Shown piece after piece: positions 1 to 42,688 of a DNA stretch of 53,219 nucleotides. Source of the DNA: a virus; the IMG/VR virus record IMGVR_UViG_3300021591_000002, positions 1 through 53,219 of that record. The stretch is one strand, 5' to 3'. The number at the start of each line of letters is the position of its first letter. Position 1 is the stretch's first letter. The notes under the pieces are model-generated. The model was not told the origin of the DNA. It did not search any database and saw only the letters and a list, made by a program, of their open reading frames with translations. A program made the translations under genes and the position numbers.

Positions 1-67
1 GTCTCGTTACCGTTTTTGTGCGATTCCTGATCGCCTCGCGTGTCCATGAGAACGAGATGATCTTCAT
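1..67 (-). CDS. ASCH-like phage protein, N-terminus only (cut by window edge)
   Basis: Only the first 22 codons lie in the window. They begin M-K-I-I-S-F-S-W-T and carry K-T-V-T-R at residues 18-22. That arrangement is typical of the N-terminus of a widespread group of short phage proteins with an ASCH-like fold, usually continuing R-x-W. The ATG at 67 overlaps the TGA of the GT9-like gene upstream (ATGA), the usual coupling in this operon. The family assignment rests on this short stretch only, and the function of such phage proteins is not settled. Confidence 0.5.
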   Translation of the reverse strand, partial: MKIISFSWTREAIRNRTKTVTR

Positions 68-1194
68 TTTGTATCTCCGTCCAGGAACTTGGACACCGCG
101 TCCTTGATAGCGGCGGGCACGTAGTTAACGCAGTCGGTTGTGCGCTTACCGTTCGCCAGCGCCACCCTGCACGTCATGCCCCAGTGGTCAGGGGGCAAAC
201 CATACGCCCATGACCAGAAGCACGTGCCTATGGGGCAAGGAAGACGCCCGCCGGGGGTTGCTATGGAGTGCACGTTGCCCTCTATGGCGAAGAACGGGTA
301 CGGCGTCGGCCCCATTAGGGTGAGGCAGCGGCATGATGCAGAACGCGCTACATATGATGCAAATCCCTCAACGGACACCACACCAAGCGCGCCCCTCATC
401 AGCTTAACTACTGCGTCCATGCGAAGCCCGCGTGCGTCAATCGTTCCATCAAGTTTCGGTACATCGCGCGCACCTATGTGCACAACCTCGACGCCGCGCT
501 CCTTAGCGCAATCCAGCACGACCTTAATGCAATTCTGCGGAAGGCTCTTGACGGCGGATAGCATGCCACTGGCGAACGACACCACTATGTATTTCTTGCC
601 CTTGGGTATTTTGGGAGGTGTGGCCTTACCCCAGTTTTCGGGGCGTATGCTGGTTAGCGGCGGCGGGAGATTGTCCTTGCGCGGTCGCACAGGGGGCTTA
701 TCGAGTACGGGCATTAAGTCTGGCGTTACCGGCACACCCAAGGACGCAGATGCCGCCTCGAACTGCGTTTCCCCAAGCGCGCGGAGCATGTAGCGAGAAT
801 ACGGGTCTCCAAGCGAAAGCCCAAGATATGGCATCGAGGATGCCACCGGTCGCCCGCGCCTATCCCAGAGTATCGGCACCATTGATGTGGCGTCAAGCAC
901 GTAGCCCCATTGCTTAAGTAACCTGGCAAGCATACCGCGCGTCGGCATGGGTTGGTGGGCGACGAAGCCCGCAAGCCAAGGGCACGCGGCGGCTATGGAC
1001 CATTCTATTGATGTGCCAGTCACCGTGGTGGTGAATATTACCTTACCGTAGCCCGCCAAGTGAAGCGCCCTGGCGCAGGCGGCAGCCCGCATCTTATCTC
1101 CGTAGCCCACGCCGGATAACACAAGCACGTAGTCATGGGGGTGGGTCTTGACGAGGCTGTGTAGTTTCGCCACGAGCCACTCAAAGCGTGTCAT
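64..1194 (-). CDS. GT9-like (heptosyltransferase-type) glycosyltransferase
   Basis: 376 aa. The protein has the two-Rossmann-domain (GT-B) layout of ADP-heptose:LPS heptosyltransferase-like enzymes. An N-terminal Gly-rich turn reads SGVGYGD (residues 27-33), and the C-terminal donor-domain signature is VSVEGFAS (273-280) followed by MGPTPYP (294-300). In classical GT9 the second motif is D-S/T-G-x-x-H, and here the His is replaced. It therefore probably transfers a sugar from a nucleotide donor, but donor and acceptor cannot be told. It is the distal partner of SSB (TGATG overlap), an odd place for a glycosyltransferase, and a second GT9-like gene sits in the virion operon at 34030. Fold likely; activity inferred. 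Confidence 0.65.
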   Translation of the reverse strand: MTRFEWLVAKLHSLVKTHPHDYVLVLSGVGYGDKMRAAACARALHLAGYGKVIFTTTVTGTSIEWSIAAACPWLAGFVAHQPMPTRGMLARLLKQWGYVLDATSMVPILWDRRGRPVASSMPYLGLSLGDPYSRYMLRALGETQFEAASASLGVPVTPDLMPVLDKPPVRPRKDNLPPPLTSIRPENWGKATPPKIPKGKKYIVVSFASGMLSAVKSLPQNCIKVVLDCAKERGVEVVHIGARDVPKLDGTIDARGLRMDAVVKLMRGALGVVSVEGFASYVARSASCRCLTLMGPTPYPFFAIEGNVHSIATPGGRLPCPIGTCFWSWAYGLPPDHWGMTCRVALANGKRTTDCVNYVPAAIKDAVSKFLDGDTK

Positions 1195-23327: not shown

Positions 23328-24851
23328 ATGCGCAAGCTAGACCCGGCGATAGTCCGGCGAGATGTACGGGAGTGCCCGATAGCGTGGTTCTCCGTGAAGC
23401 GCCGCCCAGGCCAGCGGGCGTTTTTTTATGATAAGAGCGTCGTCTCGGTTGTTATCGGGGGGCGGCGTGCCGGCAAAACCACATGCGTGGTAGGAAGAAC
23501 GGTGGCGGCAGCTACGGGTATAGAGCCGCTTGAACTTCCCGGCTGCACGGAAGGCTTCCCAAAGCCACCGCTGGCCATCAGGCACTTCTGCGTGGATATC
23601 AACCGCACGTGGGAGCAGGTGATCCTGCCGAAGTATCTGGCACTTATCCCGCCCTCGATGCTGGACAAACGCAAGGGTGCAAAGCGCGACGGGTACGAGC
23701 GCCACAAGAACACGCTGTGGCTGCGCAACGGGACGTACATACAGCCGATGACGTACGGCATGACGCTTGATAAGAGCGAGTCCGCTGTGCTGGATATCGT
23801 GAATTTTGACGAGTTTCCGCGCCAGGAGCTTTTCCACAGCCAGCTTGCACGCGTGCTGACAACTGGCGGGCGCATATTTATCGCCGGGTGTCTGGACCAG
23901 CGCAGCATGCCGTGGCCCATAGACTGGGTGCACGAAGAACTCCTTGACACCGATAATCCGCACGTGAGTGTGCACTACTTCAGCACCGAGGAAAACATCA
24001 AGGCACTCGCAGAAGAGGCGGGCGAAGAGGTCGGCGCCCGCATCAAGAAAAACCTTGAGGCCATACGCGCCTTCCTGCCCGAAGAAGAACAAAGCGTGGT
24101 GCTTGGCGGCACGCCGTCGTGGCAATTCGGGCGCGTGTACAAGGAATTCACGCCAGAAAAACATGTGCTCAAGGGCTTCCAGCCGCACCACTTCCTAGCC
24201 ATGATGCGTAAGGGCTATGGTGAGATATACGCGGGGTGGGATCACGGAATCAACCACCCAACGTGCGTGGCGTATGGTTTTCTCACAACGCATGACGTTC
24301 CAAACTTGCCTTTTAAGCGCGGCGATGTTATAGTGTTTGACGAGTACTGGCGCCAAGGGCTGAAGGCGCCGCAAATGGTGGGTGAAATCCTGCGGCTCCA
24401 CAAGATGTACATCCCGAAGCGCTACTTCTGCTGCCGCAGGATGTTCATCAGCGGTGAACTCGGGCCGTCCGTGGCGCGTTACTACATGGATAACGGGATC
24501 GCACCGCTGATTTCCGCAAGCCACGGGCGAATGGACGCCATAGACCCTGGAGTCCAGCTTGTGTCGGCGCTCATACACGAAGGCGAAGAGTGGCCGAGGT
24601 TGCGTGTGTGCGAGAATTGCACGCACGTGATCCGCGCGCTCAAGTCGTGGTCTTTCAAGCCGTCGTCGTCCGATACCAATACCGGGGCAAAATATAGCGA
24701 CAAGTACAAGGATGCAGCCGATGCCGTGCGGTATCTGGTTACCGGCTGCGCCAGGCGAAATGAAATCGCAAGGCCGGTCATGTGGCCGCAAGTCGATCAT
24801 CCCGGCCTGCCCATATCGGCACTAAGCATACTTAGCGGGGTTGGCTACTGA
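23328..24851 (+). CDS. terL: Terminase large subunit
   Basis: 507 aa, close to the family norm. The ATPase half has Walker A G-G-R-R-A-G-K-T-T (44-52) and Walker B with V-L-D-I-V-N-F-D-E (154-162). The nuclease half has Y-A-G-W-D-H-G (Asp305), V-F-D-E-Y (338-339) and K-D-A-A-D-A-V (Asp462, Asp465), the acidic triad of the RNase H-like headful nuclease. It pumps DNA into the prohead and cuts it. The ATG is one base after the TerS stop. Confidence 0.93.
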   Translation: MRKLDPAIVRRDVRECPIAWFSVKRRPGQRAFFYDKSVVSVVIGGRRAGKTTCVVGRTVAAATGIEPLELPGCTEGFPKPPLAIRHFCVDINRTWEQVILPKYLALIPPSMLDKRKGAKRDGYERHKNTLWLRNGTYIQPMTYGMTLDKSESAVLDIVNFDEFPRQELFHSQLARVLTTGGRIFIAGCLDQRSMPWPIDWVHEELLDTDNPHVSVHYFSTEENIKALAEEAGEEVGARIKKNLEAIRAFLPEEEQSVVLGGTPSWQFGRVYKEFTPEKHVLKGFQPHHFLAMMRKGYGEIYAGWDHGINHPTCVAYGFLTTHDVPNLPFKRGDVIVFDEYWRQGLKAPQMVGEILRLHKMYIPKRYFCCRRMFISGELGPSVARYYMDNGIAPLISASHGRMDAIDPGVQLVSALIHEGEEWPRLRVCENCTHVIRALKSWSFKPSSSDTNTGAKYSDKYKDAADAVRYLVTGCARRNEIARPVMWPQVDHPGLPISALSILSGVGY

Positions 24852-26944
24852 TGGCACACTTCACACTAGATGACGTTGCAAAACTCAGCGCGGAATTGAC
24901 CACCGCGTACAACGATGCGAAGTCGCGCTACGCCGAGAAACACGATGTGGTGTGGCCCAGGTGCTACCGCTTCTACAAGATGCTGCACGACCCCAGTGTG
25001 CTTCAAGGATGGCGCGAGGCGGTGATGGCGATGGGGCCACAACATCCCGCCAAGAAGGCGGCGGCCATATTCTATCCGCTTGCCTTTACCGCCGTCGAGA
25101 CGTTGATCCCGCGATTCGTGGGCGCCGTCCTTAGCCGCGAGCCACGCGTCGAGTTGGCCGACCCCGACGCCGTTGATGAAGAGAGGCTCGACCTCCTCAA
25201 GGCTTACGAAAAACGCGTCCAGGCTCATCTTGCGTACCGTATTGCGAATGATTTTCGTTTGCGTGAACTTAGCCCGCTCATCTGCCGCGACGCCTGCATC
25301 TATGGTACAGCGATTCTACACGTAGCATGGGACTACGAGGTCGATTTTCAGCGAACTTACGTCCCGCGCAAGAAGGAGACGCCTGTCGGCGAAAAGTGGG
25401 AACTCGTAAAGGAGAAAGAGCCCAAGTTTCGCGCGGGAATGTCGCTGAAGCTTATCTCGCCATATGATTTCTTCCCTGACCCTCTCGCCGACGGCATCAA
25501 CCGCACGTCGTATTTCCCCGCCCGCTACGTCATGTGGCGACGCCTTGTGCCCGTCAAGACGCTGTGGGAACATATAAGGGCAACGAAGAAGAAGCGGAAG
25601 TGGAGAGTCCAGAACCTGAAAGAGCTGCAAGAGCTGGCGGAGGCGGGGAATCAACCACCACGCCACTTCGAAGTTGCGGCGGAAGCAACGGGTGAAAGTT
25701 CGCCTGTGCCCAAGGATGACGTGATTACCGTCTTCGAATGCTGGACCTCTCCGCCCGACCCCGCGTACATTATCGCCATCGGGCGGCATTCCCCGAAGGT
25801 TATCCTCGTCGAGACAGAAGAGCAGCATCCGTCCATTCGCGCCCCGATTCCGTTTGCCCTTGTCAAGCCGATTTCCATACCGCGCGAATTCTACGGGCAG
25901 AGTATCGTTGACGTACTTGGCCCGCTCAATGACATGGTCAACGCCCTTGTCAACCTGCGCGTGATCGGTTTGTCCAAGTCGGTGGCCGGCTTCACCGGCA
26001 TCAACAAGGACATGATTTCCGCGGGCGCCGACGCGGTGCTCCGCAACCCGTTACGCGTGTACGAATTCATACCGGGCGGCACAGGGAAGCCGATTGAGTA
26101 CACGGATATCCCCGATCACACCACCGGCGTCCAGGCCCAGATCAACGATATCGTCTCGCACGCCCAGATGGCGGCGGGCACGCCGGAGCCGGTGCTTGGC
26201 GCGGGCGGACCCGAAACGGCACGCGGCTACGGGTGGGCAATCGAGCAGTCGGCCCAGCGATTCTCCCTCGCTGCCGAATCTATAGCCGCGGGCTTGCGCG
26301 ATATCCTTGAGATAGCCGTGGCCATAGATGCCCAATACATGGAACGCGGTCGCTTCGTTACCATTGAAGACAAGGGCAAGAAATATCGGCTTCCACTTGA
26401 GCCCGATATGCTCGCTGAGCCGTGGCGGATTATCGTTGACGTTGACCCGATCAAGACGAATCCGGCGCTCCAACTCCAGCAATGGCTCAACATGCTCACC
26501 GTTCTCCTGCCGTTGCCGGATATTCATCGCCACAGCTTGGTGCGCCGCACACTTGAACTTATGGGCATCAAGGACCCGCAGGAATTCCTCAAAGAAGAGG
26601 CAAGCGATCCTGAGCACGAAAACGCCCTGTTCCTTGCACGTGGTGAGTACCCGCCGCGACATCCTGGCGACAACGACGCGCATCATATCGAGGTCCACCA
26701 GCGCATTTCCGATAAGGCGGTGCAAATGGGGCCAGCGGCGGTCGCCGCGCACGCCCAGCATATCATAGAACATAAGCTTGCAATGCAGCCGCAGGCCCCG
26801 CCGCCTATGCCACAGGCCCCGGGCGCGCCTGTCGGCGCCACGCCGGAGCACGGCGCGCCCGGCATGCCCGTTGGCGAAGAAGTAGGTATCCCGACGCCAG
26901 AAGCTGCGCCCGAAGGAGCTTCATATGGTCTGCCACCCGAGTGA
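24851..26944 (+). CDS. Portal protein
   Basis: 697 aa. Order directly after terL, size, and a portal-style chain support this: an N-terminal helix, a wing with Y-D-F-F-P-D-P (about 203-209), G-Q-S-I-V-D-V-L-G-P-L-N-D-M-V-N-A (the long stem-helix approach), and a C-terminal crown. The last 70 residues are Pro/Ala/Met-rich and probably flexible. It forms the dodecameric ring through which DNA enters and to which the tail joins. TGATG overlap with terL. Confidence 0.85.
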   Translation: MAHFTLDDVAKLSAELTTAYNDAKSRYAEKHDVVWPRCYRFYKMLHDPSVLQGWREAVMAMGPQHPAKKAAAIFYPLAFTAVETLIPRFVGAVLSREPRVELADPDAVDEERLDLLKAYEKRVQAHLAYRIANDFRLRELSPLICRDACIYGTAILHVAWDYEVDFQRTYVPRKKETPVGEKWELVKEKEPKFRAGMSLKLISPYDFFPDPLADGINRTSYFPARYVMWRRLVPVKTLWEHIRATKKKRKWRVQNLKELQELAEAGNQPPRHFEVAAEATGESSPVPKDDVITVFECWTSPPDPAYIIAIGRHSPKVILVETEEQHPSIRAPIPFALVKPISIPREFYGQSIVDVLGPLNDMVNALVNLRVIGLSKSVAGFTGINKDMISAGADAVLRNPLRVYEFIPGGTGKPIEYTDIPDHTTGVQAQINDIVSHAQMAAGTPEPVLGAGGPETARGYGWAIEQSAQRFSLAAESIAAGLRDILEIAVAIDAQYMERGRFVTIEDKGKKYRLPLEPDMLAEPWRIIVDVDPIKTNPALQLQQWLNMLTVLLPLPDIHRHSLVRRTLELMGIKDPQEFLKEEASDPEHENALFLARGEYPPRHPGDNDAHHIEVHQRISDKAVQMGPAAVAAHAQHIIEHKLAMQPQAPPPMPQAPGAPVGATPEHGAPGMPVGEEVGIPTPEAAPEGASYGLPPE

Positions 26945-28424: not shown

Positions 28425-29657
28425 GTGGCTTCCTGGGAAAGCGCAAGCGGCGTGACCCTGCTCACGGGGTCCACCAACGAAAGCGTGCCGTCGGGGGAAA
28501 CGTTCACCAACGTGGACATCTACACCGCCGGCGGTGATGGACCGCAGATCGTCCCCCAGGTGCAGAAGAAGGTGTATGTGATGAACGGCGATCCGGCCGC
28601 CTTCACGGCCTTTCTCTCGCGCCTTGGGAACTTCACTGCGGTCGGCACGTCCTACTCGTGGAAAGAGCACCGGCTAGTGCCTGAGATCACCACGATCTCT
28701 GGCTCTGTGGCTGGCACCGAGACTCAGCTCACGGTGGCCCACGGGTCCATTGTGCCGACCAACGCGGTCCTCTTCTTCCCGGCTGCGAACGCACACTTTG
28801 CCGTCACCTCCCGCAGCGGCAACACCCTTACCGGGTTCTGGCTGCAAGAGCCGTCCGGTGGCATCGCTAACGGTGCCACGGCTGTTGTCATACATGTCGG
28901 CATTCCCGATGGCGCGCGTGGTTCCACCATGCCGGTGGCCGCGATGACCACGCGTACCAACTACTACGTGGATGTTGACATCAGGCAACAGTTCTCGGAC
29001 AAGCTCCTTGCGACCCAGTTCCTGGCTCCGTCCGGCAGCTACGTTGAGCATCTCAACAGGCTGCTTTCCGCCGAGTTCCTGAAGATGCAGGAAAAGGCTC
29101 TCCTTTTCGGTGTCTCGGGGACCGCGAGCGGTGATAACGGCGTGTTCTACTGGAGCGATGGCTTGCTCCAGTACGCCGTTGAGGACGGCGAAGTTGCCGT
29201 TGGCGGGGCGCTCACCCAGACTGTCTTCGAGAACAATCTCGAAGAGAAGCTGTTCAACCGCAACAGCGGTCCAGCCAACTGGGTGGCGTTCATGGCCGGC
29301 AGCGTTCGCAGGGTCATCTCGAACTGGTACAAGGACGATGTCCGGTACCAGCCTGGCAAGGGACGCGAGGCTGGGCTGAGCGTTGATACGCTCACTCACC
29401 CGTGCGGCGAGACCATCAAGCTCGTTACGCACAAGCTGCTCAGCCTGCTGGGCCTCACAGACATCATCTTCGTGGTCAACATGACCCCGGACAACTTGAA
29501 GTTGATCCGGAACAAGTGCTGTGCTGGCCCGGTCAAGCGGCTCTTCAAGAACCTTAACGGGTCTAACTCGCTTGAGGTTTCGATCCGTAACGTGTTCACC
29601 TTGATGTGCCAGGGTGCGTCCATCAACACGATGGTGTTCCGGCAGATCGAGGTGTGA
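28425..29657 (+). CDS. Major capsid protein, HK97-fold (SU10/DUF5309-like)
   Basis: 410 aa from the GTG at 28425 (AAGGAGGTGAACGGTC upstream). Segments fit the group of capsid proteins annotated DUF5309/SU10-like: an early K-E-H-R-L-V-P-E-I-T (about 76-85), an inserted beta-rich domain around residues 90-160, R-T-N-Y-Y-V-D-V-D-I-R-Q-Q-F-S, then a K-M-Q-E-K-A-L-L-F-G-V-S-G helix (spine-helix region) and G-R-E-A-G-L-S. It shows no N-terminal delta domain, consistent with a separate scaffold. It should be the most abundant virion protein. Confidence 0.8.
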   Translation: MASWESASGVTLLTGSTNESVPSGETFTNVDIYTAGGDGPQIVPQVQKKVYVMNGDPAAFTAFLSRLGNFTAVGTSYSWKEHRLVPEITTISGSVAGTETQLTVAHGSIVPTNAVLFFPAANAHFAVTSRSGNTLTGFWLQEPSGGIANGATAVVIHVGIPDGARGSTMPVAAMTTRTNYYVDVDIRQQFSDKLLATQFLAPSGSYVEHLNRLLSAEFLKMQEKALLFGVSGTASGDNGVFYWSDGLLQYAVEDGEVAVGGALTQTVFENNLEEKLFNRNSGPANWVAFMAGSVRRVISNWYKDDVRYQPGKGREAGLSVDTLTHPCGETIKLVTHKLLSLLGLTDIIFVVNMTPDNLKLIRNKCCAGPVKRLFKNLNGSNSLEVSIRNVFTLMCQGASINTMVFRQIEV

Positions 29658-29747: not shown

Positions 29748-30197
29748 ATGCCAGAGACGTATGTTTGTAACAGGCCGAAGCTAAAGGTTGTCGCTGTTCC
29801 CCCCGTGCCGATGGTCGGCACCGGCAATTCGGCGCGTCCGCTCACCAACATTCCCGAGGTGAGTGTGCAATTCGTTGGGGCGAAGTGCACCCCGCCGACG
29901 GTTGAGGAGCTTGTGCCGCGCTTCGAGGCCGCGTACCTTGAGGCAGGCGAAGATGTGCATGAAGCCAAGAAGAAGGCCAAGCTTGCCGCGAAGGCAGCTC
30001 ATGATAGGCTTATGCGGCTCCTCAACAGCGATAAGCTTCGGCAGCTTGCTGGCGTTCGCCCGGAAGGCGAATTGCTTGAATCGCGGGCTAAAGCCGCAGC
30101 CGAGATGCTGCAAAAGGTCGCGCAGGACCAGGGCAAAAGCGTTGACGAGCTTCTGAAGCAACTTCCGCCCGCTTCCGATGAGGGCACGAATGAATGA
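29748..30197 (+). CDS. Hypothetical virion protein
   Basis: 149 aa from the ATG at 29748 (TTGGAGACTGCGTG upstream). A short beta-like N-terminus with Pro-rich turns (V-A-V-P-P-V-P-M-V-G) is followed by two charged helices (E-A-K-K-K-A-K-L-A-A-K-A-A-H-D-R-L). Position after the capsid suggests a minor head or decoration protein. No family recognised. Confidence 0.6.
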   Translation: MPETYVCNRPKLKVVAVPPVPMVGTGNSARPLTNIPEVSVQFVGAKCTPPTVEELVPRFEAAYLEAGEDVHEAKKKAKLAAKAAHDRLMRLLNSDKLRQLAGVRPEGELLESRAKAAAEMLQKVAQDQGKSVDELLKQLPPASDEGTNE

Positions 30198-30841
30198 GTT
30201 ACCAGACATTCGGCGATCTCAAGCGCCTTGCAAGATATTTGGTGGGGGAGACCGGAAGTGAGCCGCGTACGATGGAGTGGATTTCCACTGCCATCAACGC
30301 AGCCTACGCCGAATTTTGTTCCGAGTATCCCTGGAGCTTCAGGCAGCGCATAACCACGGTTACGTACCCCGCCAGGGCATCCTCTTTGTCTATTTCCTCT
30401 TACGGGGTGATACAGGGCGTGTTTCGCGTTGGCGGTGGCTTCCTTGACTGGATGCCGCCGCTTGTGCTTACTGCGCGCAAAGAACGCACCACAGGCTATG
30501 GAACACCGCGGGCGTGGTCCGTCTATTCCACCGACCTCTACTTGTTTCCAACCCCCGGAAGCGACACGAACTTGAAGCTCTACCATCTAATAGACGTTGA
30601 TCCGTTGGTCAACGATTCCGACGAACCGATCATCCCACTCGCCTTTCGCCCATATCTCGCGTACGGCGCGCTTGCCATAATGACGGCAACGGAGAATTTC
30701 GAGAATCCTTCCGCCGCGCGCATGTACCGCGACATCTACGAGAAGGGCGTCCGCTTGGCGAAGATGCAAGAGCCTGGCGGAGCGCTCTACAAGGCGCACC
30801 AGGATATGCCGGGGTGGCCCACAAGTGGAGCAGTATATTGA
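30194..30841 (+). CDS. Head-tail adaptor protein
   Basis: 215 aa. It opens Y-Q-T-F-G-D-L-K-R-L-A-R-Y-L with an early helical pair (W-I-S-T-A-I-N-A-A-Y-A-E-F), then a beta section (I-T-T-V-T-Y-P-A; L-Y-L-F-P-T-P) and a last helical part with F-R-P-Y-L-A-Y-G-A-L-A. This is the layout of podoviral adaptor (gp4/gp11-like) proteins. It would bind under the portal and hold the tail nozzle. ATGA overlap with the gene before. Confidence 0.7.
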   Translation: MSYQTFGDLKRLARYLVGETGSEPRTMEWISTAINAAYAEFCSEYPWSFRQRITTVTYPARASSLSISSYGVIQGVFRVGGGFLDWMPPLVLTARKERTTGYGTPRAWSVYSTDLYLFPTPGSDTNLKLYHLIDVDPLVNDSDEPIIPLAFRPYLAYGALAIMTATENFENPSAARMYRDIYEKGVRLAKMQEPGGALYKAHQDMPGWPTSGAVY

Positions 30842-33023
30842 TATTCCCGCCGTTCGCATAGGTCCGATGGCCGACACGGCCGATCACGCCCAACTTGCGC
30901 CATCAATATCGCGCGAGCTTAGAAACTGCTGGTTCAAGGAGGGGTACGCGGATATAAGGCCGACGTGGGGTAATAGCGGGCTTACCGATCCCGCGCCGGG
31001 CGATGGGTGCCTTGGGAGCGGATACTTCACATCGGACTCCGGCGAGATAACCTATATCACAATCACGTGGGATCAGGCGACGGGGGTGCCAGATGGCTGG
31101 GGGGACGAGACGCCACGGGATGATGTGGCTCCCGACTCTGTGGTACTTGTGATACCCTGGAAGAATGGCGCCTTCATAGTTCCCTCACGCCCGCCGGGGT
31201 ACTACACCAACGGCGAAAGCGGACCCATACTTTATGCAAACACGGATGGCATCTCCCGCATAAATGCGGACCAGCCGGATGCTCCTAACGTCGAAGAACA
31301 CACGGAAGCCGGCAATGTCATGCCGGGGGTGTATTCCTACGTAGTGCAATGGGAAAACGTTGCAACCGGCATTTTGTCGCCGGCGTCGGAGCCAACGCAG
31401 ATAACAGTGGGGCTGAATGAGGAAGATGCGCAAGGACCATCCGCAGGTCCCGTGGTGTCCGTGGAAAGCGGCGGAAACATTGATAAAGGGTCCCGGCTAT
31501 ATAGTGTGGCGTTCTACAATCCTTCGACAGGGCGCGAAACGGCGCTCGGTACCGCGACTACGGCGATAATAACGGAAGACAACAGCAAGGTTGTGCTTAC
31601 CGGGGTACCGGTGCCCAAGAACACCACGGAATGGCCGCAGAAGAGGCTTTATGTTTCGGACGCGGCGGGCGCTTTTCGCCGCCTAGCGACACTCTCCGCA
31701 ACTACAACTTCTTACGTAGATGATGGGAGTGTATCCCCCGGTGATGAACATGTAACAACGGGCACTTCCGTAAAGATCACTTGGGCTGAAAACACCGCTC
31801 CACTTGCCGGCAGTTCATGGAAAATGCGCGTGTACAGGTCGTCGGGTGGCGGTGGTTATCAATTTCTAGGTTACATGGAAGGTGGTCAATTCATTGACAC
31901 ATATGAAACAGCCGAAGAAGCTCCTGGCGGCGGGACCTTGCTGGAGACCATCACACAAGTGCCGTGGTGCAATCATGCTTGCGCATCCGTGGACGGCATT
32001 GTCGCGTGGGCATGTGATAAAGAGACGCCCGCACCATTCAAGGTGTACGTATCATCTTCGCCCGATCAGCCCCTATCCGTGGGGGAAGAATACGACATCG
32101 ACCCACGCTATGGCCCGATTACCGCGCTGGCGCGCTGCGGCGAGAACTTCCTGGTCTTTACGGCGCGCTCTATCCAGGCGATTACGCCAACATCTGGCAG
32201 GGCGACGGTCATCACGGCGGGTATGGGGTGCATAGGTCCACGCGCGTGGTGCGAAACGCCACACGGCATAGCATTCGCGTCAATCTACGGGCCTGCCTTT
32301 CTGCCAAGATGTACGGGCGATCCCCGCTATGTCGGCCCCGATCCGGAGCAGTTCGCCCTTCGCGATCTCTGGGCGGAAATGTTCTCCACGGACAATGGCC
32401 GCACGACACAAACGATAGACATAGCCCAGTACAAGGTGCGGTGCTTACATGTTCCGGAAATACCTGCCGTGCTATGGTTCTTCCAGCGCGCCAAGTGGCC
32501 GGCGGACACGAGCATCCTGCCGTACACATTCGATACCGCAATAATGTGGGAATACGGAAGGCGCGATGAACGATTGACGGTGCACGATCTTCTGTGTGTG
32601 CAGGATGTACTGCTTACGCCGGAGGGCACGCCGCGCCCGCTGTGCTGGCTGTGGCCCGGCGGCTGGAAACGGATATTTGGCAAGGACGTAACCGAAGAGA
32701 TAGTGCAATACACCGGTCTGTCTAGCGATGGCCATGCCGTGAGCGGATTCCCCGCAGAACAGATACCTAGCCAAGGGGACGTTCTGTATGTTTCAAGCGG
32801 CACGGGACAGATGACCGGGGACGTCCAACGGATGGTTGATCACGTCGTGGTGAGCGTTGGTTGCGGGGGCATAGTCATAACCGCCGGGGAGCCAGTGCTT
32901 GGAGAGGATTCCACCGTGTGGCTGAATGGCTTCCCGTGGGTGGTAGATATAGGCCCAATCGTTCCTGCGGAGCCGGAGTTGGTGAAGCGCTGGACTCGCA
33001 TTTCCGTGGAGACTGCACAATGA
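30825..33023 (+). CDS. Tail nozzle-like (packaged-DNA stabilisation) protein
   Basis: 732 aa starting at a GTG (30825) that overlaps the adaptor gene by 17 bp. Typical passages are G-P-M-A-D-T-A near the start, a Fn3-like section at about 210-350, and the run F-L-V-F-T-A-R-S-I-Q-A-I-T-P followed by G-C-I-G-P-R-A-W-C-E-T-P-H-G-I-A-F, which is the recurring 'v.f....i......GcvspRs....~~Gi~f' stretch of nozzle propellers such as P22 gp10 and T7 gp12. It would close the tail end of a short-tailed virion. Adaptor followed by nozzle supports podovirus morphology. Confidence 0.72.
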   Translation: MEQYIDIPAVRIGPMADTADHAQLAPSISRELRNCWFKEGYADIRPTWGNSGLTDPAPGDGCLGSGYFTSDSGEITYITITWDQATGVPDGWGDETPRDDVAPDSVVLVIPWKNGAFIVPSRPPGYYTNGESGPILYANTDGISRINADQPDAPNVEEHTEAGNVMPGVYSYVVQWENVATGILSPASEPTQITVGLNEEDAQGPSAGPVVSVESGGNIDKGSRLYSVAFYNPSTGRETALGTATTAIITEDNSKVVLTGVPVPKNTTEWPQKRLYVSDAAGAFRRLATLSATTTSYVDDGSVSPGDEHVTTGTSVKITWAENTAPLAGSSWKMRVYRSSGGGGYQFLGYMEGGQFIDTYETAEEAPGGGTLLETITQVPWCNHACASVDGIVAWACDKETPAPFKVYVSSSPDQPLSVGEEYDIDPRYGPITALARCGENFLVFTARSIQAITPTSGRATVITAGMGCIGPRAWCETPHGIAFASIYGPAFLPRCTGDPRYVGPDPEQFALRDLWAEMFSTDNGRTTQTIDIAQYKVRCLHVPEIPAVLWFFQRAKWPADTSILPYTFDTAIMWEYGRRDERLTVHDLLCVQDVLLTPEGTPRPLCWLWPGGWKRIFGKDVTEEIVQYTGLSSDGHAVSGFPAEQIPSQGDVLYVSSGTGQMTGDVQRMVDHVVVSVGCGGIVITAGEPVLGEDSTVWLNGFPWVVDIGPIVPAEPELVKRWTRISVETAQ

Positions 33024-33244
33024 TCATCTTGAAATCTCGCCACCATTCCATTGATAAGGCCGCGCCGTCGGATTCCCTTCCGAAAGCGCCGCCGCGTAAG
33101 CGCTGCATCAGATGCGGCGCCTCTTTCCGCGGCAACACGCTCATTTGCCCTGTGTGCCACAGGGCGGCGCGTGAAATATGGGAGAAGAACCGGCGTAAGA
33201 GCGACGGCAACTTGCCACCGGGCGTGGTCAGGGTGAGGAAATGA
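33020..33244 (+). CDS. Zinc-ribbon protein
   Basis: 74 aa from the ATG at 33020 (ATGA overlap). R-C-I-R-C-G-A-S-F and L-I-C-P-V-C-H-R-A-A make one zinc ribbon (residues 30-51), with a basic tail. Proteins of this kind also occur between structural genes of other phages without known role. Confidence 0.65.
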   Translation: MIILKSRHHSIDKAAPSDSLPKAPPRKRCIRCGASFRGNTLICPVCHRAAREIWEKNRRKSDGNLPPGVVRVRK

Positions 33245-33245
33245 G

Positions 33246-33479
33246 ATGCCACGCAGGCCAAAGCACATAGTAATACGCCGCGTCGCGGGCGGCGGAATTT
33301 CTGTCCATACCGTTGACGGAGCCGTTAACGCGCGGCACACGCTAGACGTTACGATTGCATCACCGCCAGGGAAGAGTACCGAGGAGGCTGCGTATGAGGC
33401 AGCACTTACGATCCTGAAAATCGAGAAGGAACTTACGCAAGAAAAAATGCTTCTCGGTGAAAGGCCACTGGGATGGTAA
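33246..33479 (+). CDS. Hypothetical protein
   Basis: 77 aa. Beta-rich first part (H-I-V-I-R-R-V; I-S-V-H-T-V-D-G; T-L-D-V-T-I-A) and a terminal helix A-A-Y-E-A-A-L-T-I-L-K-I-E-K. GAGGAAATGAG precedes the ATG. It overlaps the methyltransferase start by 7 bp and is probably part of that cassette's transcript only. Confidence 0.58.
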   Translation: MPRRPKHIVIRRVAGGGISVHTVDGAVNARHTLDVTIASPPGKSTEEAAYEAALTILKIEKELTQEKMLLGERPLGW

Positions 33480-34051
33480 GCATGCCAACACGCCAACGCA
33501 CGATCAAGAAGTGGCTTGATTACCTTGCCGAAACTAACGGGGAGGTGGCGGCACTTGAGATCGGGCGGGTTCGCAGCCCGAATGAGACAGTTGGGCACTC
33601 AACGGTAGTGATCGCAAGGCACCCCGCAGTCAAGCGGCTCGTTTCGATTGATATAAATGCCGCGACGGAGTACGTAGCGCGTGAGCTGCTTGGAGAGGAA
33701 ATTCAGAAGGTTGAGTTCATAAATGCCGATTCGTTCTCCGCGCTGGAGAAACTTCTCCTGAGGGGCGACACCTTCGATTTTCTGTACCTCGACGGCGCCA
33801 GTGATGCCGAGATATGCTTTACGGATTTTATGGGCGCCCTCAATGTGTCGCGTGAGGGCTCCATAATAGTGCTGGACGATACGGACCCGAAGTGCGACGT
33901 GAAGGGCAACCTTACCGTCCCTTGGGCGGAAGAACACGGCGACATAGTGGAAATCGTGGATCGCGTGCCTTCCGGGCCGGATAGCAACGGGCAAACTGTC
34001 TTGCGCGTCATAATCCCCGGAGTGTTTGAATGCGAGCCTATGCGTACTTAA
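33473..34051 (+). CDS. Class I SAM-dependent methyltransferase (CmcI/Methyltransf_24-like)
   Basis: 192 aa. A Rossmann-like order is visible: A-L-E-I-G (motif I), R-L-V-S-I-D-I-N (motif II), F-I-N-A-D-S-F, D-F-L-Y-L-D-G-A and G-S-I-I-V-L-D-D-T-D. The double Asp after the last strand is typical of small-molecule O-methyltransferases. As first gene of the glycosyltransferase cassette, a sugar or glycan is the likely acceptor, which is inferred. Start ATG at 33473 overlaps the previous gene; the ATG at 33482 is an alternative. Confidence 0.72.
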   Translation: MVSMPTRQRTIKKWLDYLAETNGEVAALEIGRVRSPNETVGHSTVVIARHPAVKRLVSIDINAATEYVARELLGEEIQKVEFINADSFSALEKLLLRGDTFDFLYLDGASDAEICFTDFMGALNVSREGSIIVLDDTDPKCDVKGNLTVPWAEEHGDIVEIVDRVPSGPDSNGQTVLRVIIPGVFECEPMRT

Positions 34052-34890
34052 CGAAGAGCACGCTCGCGTGGCGCGGCGCCGGGCAGATTGCACGCAATAC
34101 GAAGCGCCTATTCGTCGGCCCATGGATTGGTGAGTTCGGATTCGAGGTTATGAACCTCGGTGTGGTACGGAGACTTAAGCAATACTTTGAGGAGGTGATT
34201 GTGTGTTCGCGTCCTGGCTCTCGCGCGTTGTACGACGGTGTGGCCGATGAATTCATCGCGCACGACATTGACTGCATAGGAGCGTGTGTGGGGCTTTCGA
34301 CAATATCGCGGCCCGTATCGCAGCAAGAAATAGAGCGCTGGCTTCCTTCGCCGCACGAGGCAACCATGCAAAAATTAATTGACTATGGCAACCACTGGCC
34401 GGGCGTCTATCAACGGCTCGGAAAGCGCGTGAAAGATTGGGATGGTATTGTCGTTGTCCACGCGCGACACAGAGAGCACGCCCCGGAAAGAAACTGGTCG
34501 CGTGAGCGCTGGAACATGCTTGCGAGACTCCTTCTTCGATCTGGTGCCGTAAAACGCCTCGTGGCCATCGGCACGGAGGAAAGCGCGTGGTCTGTCGAGG
34601 GGGCGATTGATGCGCGAAGGCTTGACCTTCGCGAGCAGATGAGTATCCTTGCGAGCGCCAGGCTGGCGATCGGTCCATCCAGCGGTCCCATGCACTTGGC
34701 ACAGCATTGCGGCTGTCCGGTGATGGTGTGGTGTGGAGGGCCAGAACGCTTCGTCATCGCTGATCGCTACAGGTGGTGGTGGAACCCGCTTGGCACACCC
34801 GCCTACCCGCACGTGGAAGAAGGATGGTGGCCTTCGGTGGAGCAGGCTTACCATTGGACAATAGAGGCCCTTGAGAAGGAAGCTGGATAA
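34030..34890 (+). CDS. GT9-like glycosyltransferase
   Basis: 286 aa. G-P-W-I-G-E-F-G-F-E-V (30-40) forms the acceptor-side turn, H-A-R-H-R-E-H-A-P-E-R-N-W (144-156) the inter-domain region, and I-G-P-S-S-G-P-M-H-L-A-Q-H-C-G (214-228) is the GT9 donor signature including the His. It keeps more of the catalytic pattern than the left-arm copy at 64. GGAG lies seven bases before the ATG. It overlaps the methyltransferase by 22 bp and the next glycosyltransferase by one. Confidence 0.75.
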   Translation: MRAYAYLTKSTLAWRGAGQIARNTKRLFVGPWIGEFGFEVMNLGVVRRLKQYFEEVIVCSRPGSRALYDGVADEFIAHDIDCIGACVGLSTISRPVSQQEIERWLPSPHEATMQKLIDYGNHWPGVYQRLGKRVKDWDGIVVVHARHREHAPERNWSRERWNMLARLLLRSGAVKRLVAIGTEESAWSVEGAIDARRLDLREQMSILASARLAIGPSSGPMHLAQHCGCPVMVWCGGPERFVIADRYRWWWNPLGTPAYPHVEEGWWPSVEQAYHWTIEALEKEAG

Positions 34891-35873
34891 TGAGTGTTGT
34901 GCTTTTGCGAGAGGACCCGCCGGGCGCCGTTGGTGGTGTGCCTAGATACTACGACAATCTTGTGAAGGCGTGCGGTATCGTTGATGTTGGCATAAACGAT
35001 AGCACGCTCATTGACTGGAAGGCCGGGCGCTTGTCTATTTCGGCGGACAATGATCTCGTTATTGTTACCAACCAGTATGCGTGCGATATTCCCCCGCAGT
35101 ACGCGGTCATTGCCATTCAGCACGGCTGCGCAATGGAGCATGGCCTTGCTAATAACTACCAGCCGCACATAGAAATGGGCGCGCGCCAGTTGGCCGCCGC
35201 GCAACGAGAACGAACGTATTGGGTGGCTGTGAGCGAGTACGCCGCGCTGCATTGCAAGTGGCATATGGGCGTTGACGCGAGGCGGATAATATGGGGTGCG
35301 GTTGACACGGAAGCATTTCATCCCGGCGAGCGGCAGATGCATCGGAATCCGCAGGGCAAGATAGTCGTCTTGGCGTCGGCTACCGATGATTGCAAGGGGC
35401 GGCATCTGCTTGACGACGTAGCCAATGCCCTTGGCGATTGCTTTAGTGTGAAGAATCTTGTCGGCGTGAAGCCAAGCGAAATGCCCGACGCCTTGCGTAG
35501 TGGCGATATATTTCTTAGTCTGTCGCTTGAGGAAGGCTTGCCGACGGTTGTGCAAGAAGCATTGTCCGTCGGGCTTGTGGTTGTGGGTACGCGGACCGGC
35601 TTCCTTTGGAGCCACGCCCACGGCGACCCCGTGTATTGTGGCAACAGGGACGCCGTGGCATGGGCCAATTACGATGTCGGCGCGGTCATCTTCGATCCGC
35701 GTCTCCGCGACATGGCCGAGTGGGTGGCCGACTTCATTCGGGGCGCCTGGGAGAGGCGGCATCGCTTCAACGGGCGCGTCTTCGCCTTGCGGTGGTTCGG
35801 GCTTGAGCTTTTCGGGCGGCAGTGGGCGCTTGCGTTCGCCGAAGCCCGCGAAGAACTAGGGGTGAAACCATGA
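34890..35873 (+). CDS. GT4-family (GT-B) glycosyltransferase
   Basis: 327 aa, somewhat short for GT4. G-G-V-P-R-Y-Y-D-N-L (15-24) is the N-terminal loop, V-D-T-E-A-F-H-P-G (138-146) the 'GVD...F.P' element, and S-L-E-E-G-L-P-T-V-V-Q-E-A-L (212-225) the E-x7-E donor-binding motif. It most likely uses a nucleotide-activated sugar with retention. TAATG coupling to the GT9-like gene and ATGA to the GT2 gene place all three in one translational unit. Confidence 0.83.
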   Translation: MSVVLLREDPPGAVGGVPRYYDNLVKACGIVDVGINDSTLIDWKAGRLSISADNDLVIVTNQYACDIPPQYAVIAIQHGCAMEHGLANNYQPHIEMGARQLAAAQRERTYWVAVSEYAALHCKWHMGVDARRIIWGAVDTEAFHPGERQMHRNPQGKIVVLASATDDCKGRHLLDDVANALGDCFSVKNLVGVKPSEMPDALRSGDIFLSLSLEEGLPTVVQEALSVGLVVVGTRTGFLWSHAHGDPVYCGNRDAVAWANYDVGAVIFDPRLRDMAEWVADFIRGAWERRHRFNGRVFALRWFGLELFGRQWALAFAEAREELGVKP

Positions 35874-36580
35874 AGCCGGTTGGCGTGGCGATAATAGCGT
35901 ATCGGCGCCTCGAAGACGCACGCCGTGCCGTAAGGTCCGTGCTGGCGAACACGCGGTACCCCTTCAGGCTACTTGTATTCGATAACAGTGATGACTTTCG
36001 CATTGGCTCGTGGATGCTCGCGCATGCTAACTCCGCGATGTATAGGCGAAGCCCGTACAATTGCGGCACGTGCCTTGCCCGTAACGAAATCATGCGGGTA
36101 TTCTGCCGCATGGGTATGGATTATTGGGTAGTCATGGACCAGGACGTGGAGGTTGTGGCGCCCGGCTGGGTAAAAGACATGCTTGACGTGTTCAAGCATT
36201 ATCCGGATACTGGTATCGTCGGCTGGCGCAATGCCGTGCGTTCGGCAGGGTGCCCGCATGCGCCAGATAATACAGGCCGTATGCCGGAGATACCAGGCGT
36301 GTGCACAATGGTAAGTCGCAAGTGCGCAGAGGCGGTAAATGGTTGGTGCGCCAGATACTTCCTGCACCGTGGGGAGGATACAGACTTCTGCCTGGCGGCT
36401 GCGACAAAAGGCTTCGCAACACGGGTTGTGATGGGGCCGGATAAGATAGCCCACCACCACCCACATCGTGGTGTCCAAGCCTTCGCCGGCCACGGCAAAA
36501 TGTGGAGCCTGAGCGACGCAATACTCAAGGAGCGCACGGAAAAACTTGGGTTCGAACGTATCCCCGGGATAAATGCCTAG
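35870..36580 (+). CDS. GT2-family (GT-A) glycosyltransferase
   Basis: 236 aa from the ATG at 35870 (ATGA overlap). V-A-I-I-A-Y-R-R-L opens the Rossmann-like fold, V-F-D-N-S-D-D (36-42) binds nucleotide, M-D-Q-D-V-E (89-94) is the metal-binding D-x-D region, and G-E-D-T-D-F-C (168-174) carries the acidic catalytic base motif (E-D). It is inverting by family. It ends the cassette; no lipid-carrier or export gene follows, so the acceptor may be a protein or host glycan. Confidence 0.8.
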   Translation: MKPVGVAIIAYRRLEDARRAVRSVLANTRYPFRLLVFDNSDDFRIGSWMLAHANSAMYRRSPYNCGTCLARNEIMRVFCRMGMDYWVVMDQDVEVVAPGWVKDMLDVFKHYPDTGIVGWRNAVRSAGCPHAPDNTGRMPEIPGVCTMVSRKCAEAVNGWCARYFLHRGEDTDFCLAAATKGFATRVVMGPDKIAHHHPHRGVQAFAGHGKMWSLSDAILKERTEKLGFERIPGINA

Positions 36581-36589
36581 GGGTAGGTC

Positions 36590-37198
36590 ATGAGGAAGCG
36601 AGTAACTAGCGAGAACACGGGGGGCAAGCTCCTGGTTGGGTGTGCGCGGGGGCGCTGGATATGGCGTCCGTGGCGTTGGCCCGGCCTGCTGCTGGGCGTG
36701 CTAATCCGACTGTTTGGCGCGCTTAGTTGCGGACGGTTTGCGCCATATAGCCACATGTTTTTGTGGTATGGCTCAACGATATGGGAGGCTAGTAAGACAT
36801 GGCGGCGTGGGCACATAAGCGAGTACGACGATAAGTCGCTTGTGGTGGATGTGTACGAGATACTTCAGCCGAATGGAAAGCCGCTTGCGCAATGGCAGGT
36901 GCGCCGCGCGCTGGAAATGGCGGACGCGATGGTGGGGCAGCCGTATGACTGGTACCACCTTATACGCATGGCTGCATCAATGCTTGGTATTTTGCACGAT
37001 GATATCGACACATACATTCCAACGAAGCCCTTGTGCTCCGAAGGTGTGGCGCTTTGTTACTACGCCGCCGCCGTTGATATTCCGGGCGCTGCGGGCACCA
37101 AGCTCTGGACATTCGCGCCATGGCATATCTTGCGTCTGCTCAAGCGCAAACCGCCGATGGCAACGTTGCAGGGGAGGCTTTCGTTGGGCTTGAATTAA
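36590..37198 (+). CDS. Permuted papain-like (NlpC/P60-YiiX type) amidase/peptidase
   Basis: 202 aa. S-H-M-F-L-W-Y (His55) and W-E-A-S lie before L-C-S-E-G-V-A-L (Cys149), the reversed His-then-Cys order of the YiiX/LRAT-like permuted NlpC/P60 superfamily. A hydrophobic stretch at about 31-47 (P-G-L-L-L-G-V-L-I-R-L-F-G-A-L) may be a membrane anchor. Next to membrane and lipoprotein genes, peptidoglycan cleavage is plausible, but these enzymes can also hydrolyse other amide or acyl bonds. Confidence 0.68.
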   Translation: MRKRVTSENTGGKLLVGCARGRWIWRPWRWPGLLLGVLIRLFGALSCGRFAPYSHMFLWYGSTIWEASKTWRRGHISEYDDKSLVVDVYEILQPNGKPLAQWQVRRALEMADAMVGQPYDWYHLIRMAASMLGILHDDIDTYIPTKPLCSEGVALCYYAAAVDIPGAAGTKLWTFAPWHILRLLKRKPPMATLQGRLSLGLN

Positions 37199-38250: not shown

Positions 38251-38613
38251 ATGACGCTGAGCGCCGGCGACTTCAAGGTCAAGTGGGAAGCCGGCCGCCG
38301 GGGTGTTCAGTGGGCGGTCGTTACGCACGTGCCATCGGGTCGCACATTTCGCCTGAAGGCCGCGGCGTGTGTGACTCGCACCTGGCGATCTGAGGCAGAC
38401 AGGGATGCGTGGCTTCGCAAACACGCGCTCGCCTACTACAGCCGTATGACGCATGAAGAATTGCCTGACGGCATACGCGAAAGGCTCCTAGAGGAAGCCC
38501 GGCAGCGCCTGGAAGAGCTGAGGGCCGCCCGTGAGTTCTTCGAGGAGCTACGAGAGCGCTACCCGGAGTATTCGGACCGGATCCCTACTGTGACAATCAG
38601 CGGAGGTGAGTAG
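38251..38613 (+). CDS. Hypothetical protein
   Basis: 120 aa. Beta-rich N-terminal half (F-K-V-K-W-E-A-G; V-Q-W-A-V-V-T-H-V-P-S-G-R-T-F) and a charged coiled C-terminus (L-E-E-A-R-Q-R-L-E-E-L-R-A-A-R-E-F-F). GAAGGAGTAGCGC precedes the ATG. The stop overlaps the spike gene's GTG by one base. Function unknown. Confidence 0.6.
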   Translation: MTLSAGDFKVKWEAGRRGVQWAVVTHVPSGRTFRLKAAACVTRTWRSEADRDAWLRKHALAYYSRMTHEELPDGIRERLLEEARQRLEELRAAREFFEELRERYPEYSDRIPTVTISGGE

Positions 38614-40028
38614 TGGCAGACAAGGTTTTCGACAATCTCGGCAACGGCTCTGGCACGTGGGAAGACCCCACCGACTGGGACCCTGAAGGCGTCCCTGCCG
38701 ACGGCGACACCATCCGGATCAGCGCCGACTGTACCGTGAGTACAGATTACTCCGCGTTGACATTCTCGGACCTGGAGATTGACGCGGGCAAGACGTTGAC
38801 CGTCGCAAATGGCGGCGACATCCGCTTCGGTACCAATCCCGGTCACATTGCCGCCACAGGCAAGCTGCATATTGATACTGGCGGGAACATACGCTACACC
38901 GACACATACCTGGAAGTCGATGGCATCATCGAATTCGATGGCGGGGTATTCGAACTATACAGCACAGCTACGACAAGTACCTACATCTATATGCAGTATG
39001 ATAGTGCCATTACCGCGACGGCGAATGGCGGCACAGTACGGATGAACTGTGCGGCGGACGCAAAGTGTTATATCCGCGCCCGCACTGGTGGCGTAACCAT
39101 CGCTGGAAATCCGGCAGCGAGGCTCATCCTGGACTGCGGCAACGGGGTGGCCAAGGCGAATGGCATACAAGGATATGAGTCGTATTCAGCACCCGCGCAA
39201 CTCTCGCATCTTGAGATTCGGGATGCTTATATCGGCGTGAAGCTCGGCAGAACTAATTGTGCGACGATCACTGATTGCCTAATCCACGGATGTCAGTATT
39301 GTGGCCTGTTCTGTGACGGAGGCCCGGCATGTCTGGTGCGTGATTGCGTTATCTATGATTGCTATGTGGGCATGTATGGCCACTTCGCTTCTTGTCTGTC
39401 GGCCGTTAATATTGTGTTGGGCGAGACAGAAGACGAAACACCCGCGCCTAATGACTATGATGTCTCTGTAAAGTATATGGGCAACACCATGGTCTTTTAT
39501 AATTGCAAGTTTTCTAGCCCCGTGCCAGTTAGAATAGAGACGACGTACAATCAATGGAGCGGGCGACACTGCGGCATGATTTCAAATGCTCATGATCAGG
39601 ACAAGGAGGCCTTTAAGCGCTGGATAGGCCCGGGGCATACTCTTGAGAGCGAGTTTAGCATCACGCACGGAGGTAGCCGCCAGTCTTTAAAGATGACCAC
39701 AAGCAGTAAGGCGGGCGCTGATGAGCGGCGTCGCGCCGACTTCACCCTGGCCACATGGCCAGCCACCCACGGCGACACGCTGGATGTCAGCCTGTATGTT
39801 CGCGGCCAGGCGGGCGACAAGATCAAACTCATAGTTGATCCCGAAGGCCACTACGGCACCACGCAGAGTACAGAGCACACCCAGAGCGTTAGCGATGCGT
39901 GGGAGAAGGTCAGCGTGCCAACCTACACCGTGAACACCAACCCAGGCGAGAAGATGGGCATCCCAATCGTGGTGCGGTGCGAGGAGCCGTTAAAAACCTG
40001 GTATCTCGATACCCTGGAGGTCAACTGA
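38613..40028 (+). CDS. Beta-helix tail spike
   Basis: 471 aa from the GTG at 38613 (GGAGGTGAGTA upstream). Residues about 40-290 show the short repeating turns of a right-handed beta-helix (G-D-T-I-R-I-S; L-E-I-D-A-G-K-T-L-T-V; I-E-F-D-G-G-V-F-E-L). A Cys-rich run (about 213-251, eight Cys) interrupts it. Residues about 350-470 look like a jelly-roll carbohydrate-binding end (L-D-V-S-L-Y-V-R-G; I-P-I-V-V-R-C). It probably binds or cuts host surface glycans; no catalytic acid pair can be assigned. Confidence 0.68.
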   Translation: MADKVFDNLGNGSGTWEDPTDWDPEGVPADGDTIRISADCTVSTDYSALTFSDLEIDAGKTLTVANGGDIRFGTNPGHIAATGKLHIDTGGNIRYTDTYLEVDGIIEFDGGVFELYSTATTSTYIYMQYDSAITATANGGTVRMNCAADAKCYIRARTGGVTIAGNPAARLILDCGNGVAKANGIQGYESYSAPAQLSHLEIRDAYIGVKLGRTNCATITDCLIHGCQYCGLFCDGGPACLVRDCVIYDCYVGMYGHFASCLSAVNIVLGETEDETPAPNDYDVSVKYMGNTMVFYNCKFSSPVPVRIETTYNQWSGRHCGMISNAHDQDKEAFKRWIGPGHTLESEFSITHGGSRQSLKMTTSSKAGADERRRADFTLATWPATHGDTLDVSLYVRGQAGDKIKLIVDPEGHYGTTQSTEHTQSVSDAWEKVSVPTYTVNTNPGEKMGIPIVVRCEEPLKTWYLDTLEVN

Positions 40029-41855: not shown

Positions 41856-42688
41856 TTGTGTATCATCGGGCCTGCCAGCAATACAGCAACGGCGCCTGGT
41901 CTGCGCTGACGCCACTGTCTATCTCTGCCGAGACATTCACGCTTTCCGGCACGAGCATTGAATCCCTCTCCGCATCATATGATTCGTCTGCCGGGCGCTA
42001 TTATGTGCAAACCACGGATGTGCAGTATGTTAGCGGGCAAACATACGAGATTAGGTGGAGTGTAACGCTCGCGTCGGGGACATACGCAGTCTCTGATTAT
42101 TTTGTCCATCGGCAACCGTCTGGGGCAGGGAGCCCGCCAGAGGCGCCCACCGTCCGCGTACTGGAGACGCATGTCGGCTACGCTACTTTATATGTCGCGG
42201 AGCCAGCAGACCCCGACGATGATTATAGCCATTCGATTATATACGTCACAGGACGCGATGGCACCTTTGGTTCGTACACCGCCCTTCCCGGCGCGCATGT
42301 GCAAGTATTTGGCGCGGCGGGCGTGGAGCATTTTGCGACGGCCGTGGCAGTCGATTCTGAGGGTAACAAGAGTGCCCCATCGCCGGTGGTAACGTTTGTG
42401 CCGCTTCAGGAGGAGGACGATTCCGCCGGCGAGATGCCAATCACTGTCCGGTGGTATGTAGATGAAGAGGGAGAACATGCCTTTTCGCCGGGCTACATAA
42501 ATACGGGGAGGCACGGGATACAAACGATAGGTTCTACCCTCGCGCCTATAGCGCGTGGACGCGGACTGCGCGTCAGGCTTGAGTGTAGATATCCGGTGCA
42601 CCCCAAGGTCCGTAGGATAATGCTCATGTTTACCGCGCCGGTACGGCGTCCCCCGGAAGGCGTGCACACGAAGGCGAAAGAGCGATGA
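41852..42688 (+). CDS. Tail/fibre protein with Fn3-like domain
   Basis: 278 aa. Beta-rich throughout; residues about 90-185 have the pattern of an Fn3-like sandwich (P-T-V-R-V-L-E-T-H-V-G-Y-A-T-L-Y-V; F-A-T-A-V-A-V-D-S-E-G-N-K-S-A-P-S). The last part (R-G-R-G-L-R-V-R-L-E-C-R) is basic. ATGA overlaps on both sides link it with the fibre and the His-rich protein. Confidence 0.62.
   Translation: MIVYHRACQQYSNGAWSALTPLSISAETFTLSGTSIESLSASYDSSAGRYYVQTTDVQYVSGQTYEIRWSVTLASGTYAVSDYFVHRQPSGAGSPPEAPTVRVLETHVGYATLYVAEPADPDDDYSHSIIYVTGRDGTFGSYTALPGAHVQVFGAAGVEHFATAVAVDSEGNKSAPSPVVTFVPLQEEDDSAGEMPITVRWYVDEEGEHAFSPGYINTGRHGIQTIGSTLAPIARGRGLRVRLECRYPVHPKVRRIMLMFTAPVRRPPEGVHTKAKER

Follow-up and report, generated by a model that had tools for sequence, protein, structure and literature searches.

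A sugar-enzyme cassette among the virion genes

We analysed a virus record from IMG/VR (IMGVR_UViG_3300021591_000002), which is 53,219 bases long and is hereafter called the window. It is possibly incomplete, since its last gene (47508 onward) is unfinished at the window end. At 33473-36580, among the virion genes, lie a predicted methyltransferase and three predicted glycosyltransferases (GTs). We lean slightly towards the reading that these four genes form a module, expressed late, whose enzymes assemble a short and perhaps methylated glycan on proteins of the virion. They are:

33473..34051, + strand: class I S-adenosylmethionine-dependent methyltransferase of the Methyltransf_24 / O-methyltransferase kind, 192 amino acids (aa) (PF13578 8.1e-10; PF01596, Methyltransf_3, 3.4e-6)
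34030..34890, + strand: GT9-like glycosyltransferase of the GPWxGEFG[WF]E family, 286 aa (family profile E 1e-60; AlphaFold2 model)
34890..35873, + strand: GT4-type glycosyltransferase with an EX7E motif, 327 aa (Pfam Glyco_trans_1_4 2.7e-7)
35870..36580, + strand: GT2-type glycosyltransferase with DxD (MDQD) and ED motifs, 236 aa (Glycos_transf_2 1e-8; phrog_2456 8e-10)

The first-pass annotation of this DNA had described four adjoining genes overlapping by 22, 1 and 4 bases, and this is borne out, with all four frames open. The enzyme classes that it named also agree with Pfam. The methyltransferase scores 40 bits against Methyltransf_24 (cut-off 26.3), the GT4 protein 31.4 bits against PF13692 (cut-off 27), and the GT2 protein 35.7 bits against PF00535 (cut-off 23.3). 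The translations hold motifs of a catalytic type: EX7E as EGLPTVVQE in the GT4 protein, and MDQDVEV and GEDTDF in the GT2 protein. For the GT9-like gene, the match to Glyco_transf_9 (PF01075, cut-off 22 bits) is borderline (21.6 bits, E 1.6e-4 with hmmscan, and 22.6 bits counting neighbouring matches in the frame), and several of its relatives score 26-28 bits; its class is backed by a family profile and a structural model. Sequence searches of solved structures gave only weak matches for the GT4, GT2, and methyltransferase proteins.

The cassette had also been called a complete-looking glycan assembly set. This was overstated, because no gene for sugar-nucleotide synthesis, priming, a flippase or a ligase was found with it.

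A distinct branch of GT9-like enzymes

The window GT9-like protein carries GPWIGEFGFE at its N-terminus and GPSSGPMHLA as a C-terminal motif. The pattern GPWxGEFG[WF]E matched 96 stretches of IMG/VR viral contigs, and the family profile was built from 62 representatives with the window gene left out. Fifty-three aligned relatives are 22-36% identical to the window protein. G30, P31, W32, G34, E35, F36, G37, and E39 are invariant in the 53 sequences, largely since the motif was used for gathering them; outside it, R146, G181, G219, R246, and W251-N252-P253 are invariant too.

The AlphaFold2 model of this protein (pLDDT 85) has GT9 enzymes as its closest PDB structures: 3tov (Z 17.0), WaaF 1psw (Z 16.9), WaaC 2h1h (Z 16.5), and TibC 4rap (Z 14.2). 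The model supports a GT-B fold and a GT9-like enzyme, closest to the GT9 heptosyltransferases. The likeness to WaaC, WaaF, and TibC (Z 14-17) extends to the C-terminal motif, which resembles the GT9 signature. However, these enzymes are only 13-17% identical to the window protein, and the N-terminal GPWxGEFG[WF]E with its invariant E35 is a conserved signature of the window family. From where it stands after the first strand, E35 may be the counterpart of WaaC's catalytic aspartate.

Could these glycosyltransferases instead modify phage DNA bases against restriction? Phages are known to encode DNA-hypermodifying glycosyltransferases (Pyle 2024, listed in PMC12619734), the Foldseek matches of the GT9-like model include one phage glycosyltransferase (9iqz) at a low rank, and the GT2 protein gives a very weak TAGT score. 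We regard this as very improbable: the TAGT score, at 9.6 bits, falls far short of the 27.5-bit cut-off, the window holds no TET/JBP (PF12851) or thymidylate-synthase (PF00303) family, and the genes lie in the virion operon and not with the replication genes. DNA glucosylation was rejected because its partner enzymes are absent from the window. Thus, base modification, which the first-pass annotation had set against its own proposal, finds no support.

The family was absent from the deposited phages that we searched. GT9-like probes from four branches had no tblastn match in 50,697 phages. In PHROGs, no family matched the window gene or six of seven relatives, and the seventh matched only through a fused GT4 part. 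In several relatives, the GT9-like domain is fused behind a GT4-type domain, as Pfam shows for contigs L009 and L071; in the window, the two genes adjoin. Nor did blastn of the cassette in phages, or related-locus searches with the GT9-like, portal, and GT2 sequences, reveal a close relative, and the same holds for tblastn of the portal, GT9-like, methyltransferase, and GT4 proteins. A terminase search reached relatives that are only 23-29% identical, and among 80 viral loci gathered with the terminase alignment, the GT9-like family was in none of the fetched stretches. The GEFGWE branch of GT9 is new, and so are the findings that deposited phages lack it by these probes and that uncultivated podoviruses repeatedly carry it in their virion operons.

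Position in the late operon

The head and tail genes upstream of the cassette and the gene that follows it are:

24851..26944, + strand: SU10-type portal protein (PF23899 4e-14)
28425..29657, + strand: SU10-type major capsid protein (MCP) (PF17236 1.5e-10)
30194..30841, + strand: SU10-type adaptor protein (PF24175 4.3e-13)
30825..33023, + strand: nozzle-position tail protein, 732 aa, following the adaptor (phrog_511 6e-9)
36590..37198, + strand: 202-aa protein, possibly a permuted papain-like hydrolase (by eye), opening the lysis-type stretch (phrog_1128 2.4e-7)

By its portal, MCP, and adaptor matches, the uncultivated, short-tailed window phage is classed as an SU10-like podovirus. The phrog_511 match of the 732-aa gene is common to it and the nozzle-position gene of another SU10-like phage (G001), and the protein had no match in a sequence search of solved structures. 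With this gene upstream and the phrog_1128 gene downstream, the cassette lies between tail nozzle and lysis-type genes, as first described. The motifs SHMFLWYG and CSEGVALCY are present in the translation of the 36590-37198 protein.

Two small open reading frames (ORFs), 33020-33244 and 33246-33479, stand between the nozzle-position gene and the cassette. The first encodes a zinc-ribbon-like protein of 74 aa with two CxxC pairs and shares 4 bases with the end of the nozzle-position gene.

All junctions from the nozzle-position gene to 36590 overlap or are shorter than 10 bases, and over 28-41 kb, consensus sites of promoter and terminator type are no more numerous than in shuffled sequences. 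For these two reasons, the stretch from the nozzle-position gene through 36590 is consistent with one late transcription unit. The claim that a cassette for glycan modification is produced along with the late proteins is well supported; what the sequence shows is the integrity of the genes, their enzyme classes, and their place in the operon.

Recurrence in related phages

The first-pass annotation had suggested a gene-neighbourhood search in other phages. Carried out, it showed that at least two further SU10-like lineages and one HK97-type phage have the GT9-like family among their head or tail genes, in the company of other glycosyltransferases and methyltransferases. SU10_portal is present in 6 of the 50 tested records that carry the GT9-like gene.

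In the first SU10-portal lineage (G001-G003, corresponding to L033, L015, and L046), the order begins with a CgeB-like GT4 gene, a methyltransferase, terminase, portal, and the GT9-like gene; a scaffold-like gene, the MCP, a GT-A-like gene (phrog_1574), the adaptor, and the nozzle-position gene come after it. The second (G006, G007, and G027, with G008 alongside) starts with head genes, a fusion of a phrog_1574 glycosyltransferase and a methyltransferase, an adaptor-position gene, a long nozzle-position gene, and fibre-like genes. Methyltransf_24, a GT/methyltransferase protein, the GT9-like gene, and a GT9-GT4 protein follow these first fibre-like genes, and the order ends with further fibre-like genes, lysis-type genes, and a protein of ~1,980 aa. 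The slot of the sugar genes after the nozzle-position gene is in this second lineage the slot of the window cassette. In two SU10-like lineages (L198 18518-19564 and L201 3302-4600), the gene for the phrog_1574 protein, which is GT-A-like and of unknown PHROG function, comes after the head genes; fused to a methyltransferase in L201, this protein is another candidate for a virion glycosyltransferase.

Outside these lineages, the HK97-type contig L064 has GT9 and GT2 genes between the head protease and the Phage_capsid MCP, and a GEFGWE gene downstream of the tail genes, with a sulfotransferase next in the overlapping contig L004. Methyltransf_24 exceeds its cut-off in 20 of the 50 records with a GT9-like gene. 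It lies within 6 kb of that gene in 18 of the 22 records with any match, where random placement would give 5.9, although related records are not independent and the significance is therefore overstated.

The remaining cassette members are less constant. For the methyltransferase, GT4, and GT2 genes, direct homology to genes of the relatives was not demonstrable beyond the family level. Since these three lack demonstrable orthologues in other SU10-like phages, the cassette would be made of interchangeable parts; the same lack would suit passing morons from host polysaccharide clusters, without a selected role in the window phage. We think this unlikely, given that the four frames are intact and keep their motifs, that codon use in them matches the rest of the phage's genes, and that like enzymes recur in the same operon zone of separate lineages.

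Origin of the GT9-like gene

Relatives of the GT9-like protein are also encoded by 17 loci from bacterial genomes, mostly assemblies of the Planctomycetes-Verrucomicrobia-Chlamydiae (PVC) group. The loci examined adjoin polysaccharide flippases (Polysacc_synt), GT4 genes, and PMT-like membrane proteins. A search for the window GT4 in nine bacterial genomes that carry the GT9-like gene gave no match, but it had no positive control and is uninformative.

A maximum-likelihood tree places the window gene, on a long branch of 1.74, with six bacterial sequences at 83/85, a fork that is not starred. The genes of G001-G003 and of G006/G007/G027 are in separate starred clades. Because these three fall apart in the tree, two to three separate recruitments of the GT9-like gene into SU10-like phages appear likely. 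A PVC-group host for the window phage is a guess only.

Virion or host surface as the target

The genes were first proposed either to decorate the virion or to rebuild host surface sugar. The first of these is favoured: in unrelated phages, the GT9-like gene lies between portal and scaffold, after fibre genes, or in a contig that has its other GT genes between protease and MCP. A virion target accounts better than a host-surface target for the repeated occurrence of the family among portal, scaffold, and MCP genes. The second is weaker but stands, with bacterial homologues in polysaccharide clusters.

We infer the order, donor, acceptor, and purpose of such a virion module as follows. It would act in the host cytoplasm during assembly, most likely on capsid or tail/fibre proteins. 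The GT9-like, GT4, and GT2 enzymes would add sugars in series from host nucleotide-sugar pools, and the methyltransferase would cap or modify one sugar. With a virion protein as acceptor, the glycan may serve for shielding or altered attachment. None of the four cassette proteins has a membrane-like segment, so that cytosolic virion proteins could be targets of each enzyme. In mycobacteriophages, phage-encoded capsid glycosylation is established (Freeman 2023, as reported in PMC11256854 and PMC12619734).

Several points weigh against virion glycosylation here. No glycan, acceptor or donor has been observed, and no dedicated initiating protein glycosyltransferase was recognised. Enzymes of the lipopolysaccharide (LPS) core are also cytosolic, so the absence of membrane segments is not decisive. 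A serine/threonine-rich acceptor segment was found only in 41852-42685 (P 0.01), which is not significant over the 21 proteins tested. The nearest bacterial homologues are in surface-polysaccharide clusters, and T4-like marine contigs hold the GT9-like family within large sugar-biosynthesis blocks, with heptose-type sugar-nucleotide genes adjoining, and not strictly among head genes. Beside the GT9-like gene, a marine contig (L067 62-904, - strand) and related loci encode an RpiB-like protein (by eye) with a C-terminus of the heptose 1-phosphate adenylyltransferase type (phrog_7878); together with its PfkB-kinase-like and HAD-like neighbours, it could form an unusual heptose-nucleotide pathway.

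The bacterial and T4-like contexts would suit a cassette that acts late in infection on the LPS core, O-chain or capsule of the host, and so blocks adsorption of competing phages or sticking of progeny to debris. GT9 is the LPS heptosyltransferase family, the PVC-group homologues have flippase and GT4 genes as neighbours, and the heptose-type genes of the T4-like relatives fit as well. For the glycosyltransferase blocks of marine myophages, O-chain modification has been argued by the authors of PMC7029224. We hold this explanation to be credible but rather doubtful for the window, where no GtrA family (PF04138) was found in a record that may be incomplete. Moreover, no flippase, polymerase or ligase was recognised in the cassette or its neighbours, the cassette proteins have no membrane-like segment, and the recurrence among portal, scaffold, and MCP genes fits a virion target better.

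Other features of the window

A second GT9-like gene had been proposed at the far end of the early arm:

64..1194, - strand: 376-aa protein, proposed second GT9-like enzyme (hhalign 62% probability, P 7e-5, 74 columns)

This protein has no match in Pfam, PHROGs or the GT9-like family profile, and its fold prediction (pLDDT 34) gave no usable model. The hhalign match, over 74 columns at 62%, lends the proposal weak support.

The rightward arm of the window holds the virion genes, and the leftward arm genes for replication and recombination: a DnaB-like helicase, an Erf-type annealing protein, a RuvC-like resolvase, an exonuclease, and DNA methyltransferases. Two of the latter are adjoining, similar genes at 4152-6022 (- strand) with a 4-base overlap, one of the D12 adenine class (5087-6022) and one matching phrog_56 (4152-5090). 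In the same direction, 11074-11874 (- strand) encodes a 266-aa protein that by eye resembles the phage Gp37/Gp68 (DUF5131) family. A likely fibre or spike, a G8-domain / right-handed beta-helix protein, is encoded at 38613-40028, downstream of the lysis-type genes. The open frame at 47508-53219, of at least 1,904 aa, is positioned like the 1,982-aa protein of G007.

Comparison with known systems and significance

The Gtr serotype-conversion cassettes of temperate phages resemble the window in having phage glycosyltransferases beside late genes. Gtr systems need a GtrA flippase, a membrane-anchored GtrB, and a membrane glycosyltransferase, whereas none of the three was found in the window. Pelagimyophages have glycosyltransferase and LPS-gene blocks (PMC7029224), and these sugar blocks of T4-like marine phages are matched here by the T4-like contigs that carry the GT9-like family. 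However, the pelagimyophage blocks belong to the host-recognition region and also encode sugar-nucleotide synthesis, and the authors interpreted them as modifying the O-chain of the host.

The mechanism proposed here has its counterpart in mycobacteriophages (Che8, Rita, and others; Freeman et al. 2023 via PMC11256854 and PMC12619734), where phage glycosyltransferases decorate virion proteins. The window differs in its late-operon set of predicted GT9-like, GT4, GT2, and methyltransferase enzymes. Kinship with the mycobacteriophage enzymes was not found: tblastn in the 50,697 phage records gave no match for the GT9-like, GT4, and methyltransferase proteins, and the GT2 protein had three weak matches, none in a mycobacteriophage.

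More tentatively, virion glycosylation might be common in uncultivated short-tailed phages, whose head-and-tail operon would repeatedly have taken up a GT9 subfamily, along with a sugar methyltransferase, from polysaccharide clusters of the host, with virions wearing a methylated, host-copied glycan. To our knowledge, few systems are established in which the proteins of phage particles are glycosylated. Marking such modules in uncultivated phages by a signature motif would let them be counted, expressed, and tested. This would show whether phages beyond mycobacteriophages sugar-coat their virions, and it bears on adsorption, environmental stability, and virion recognition.

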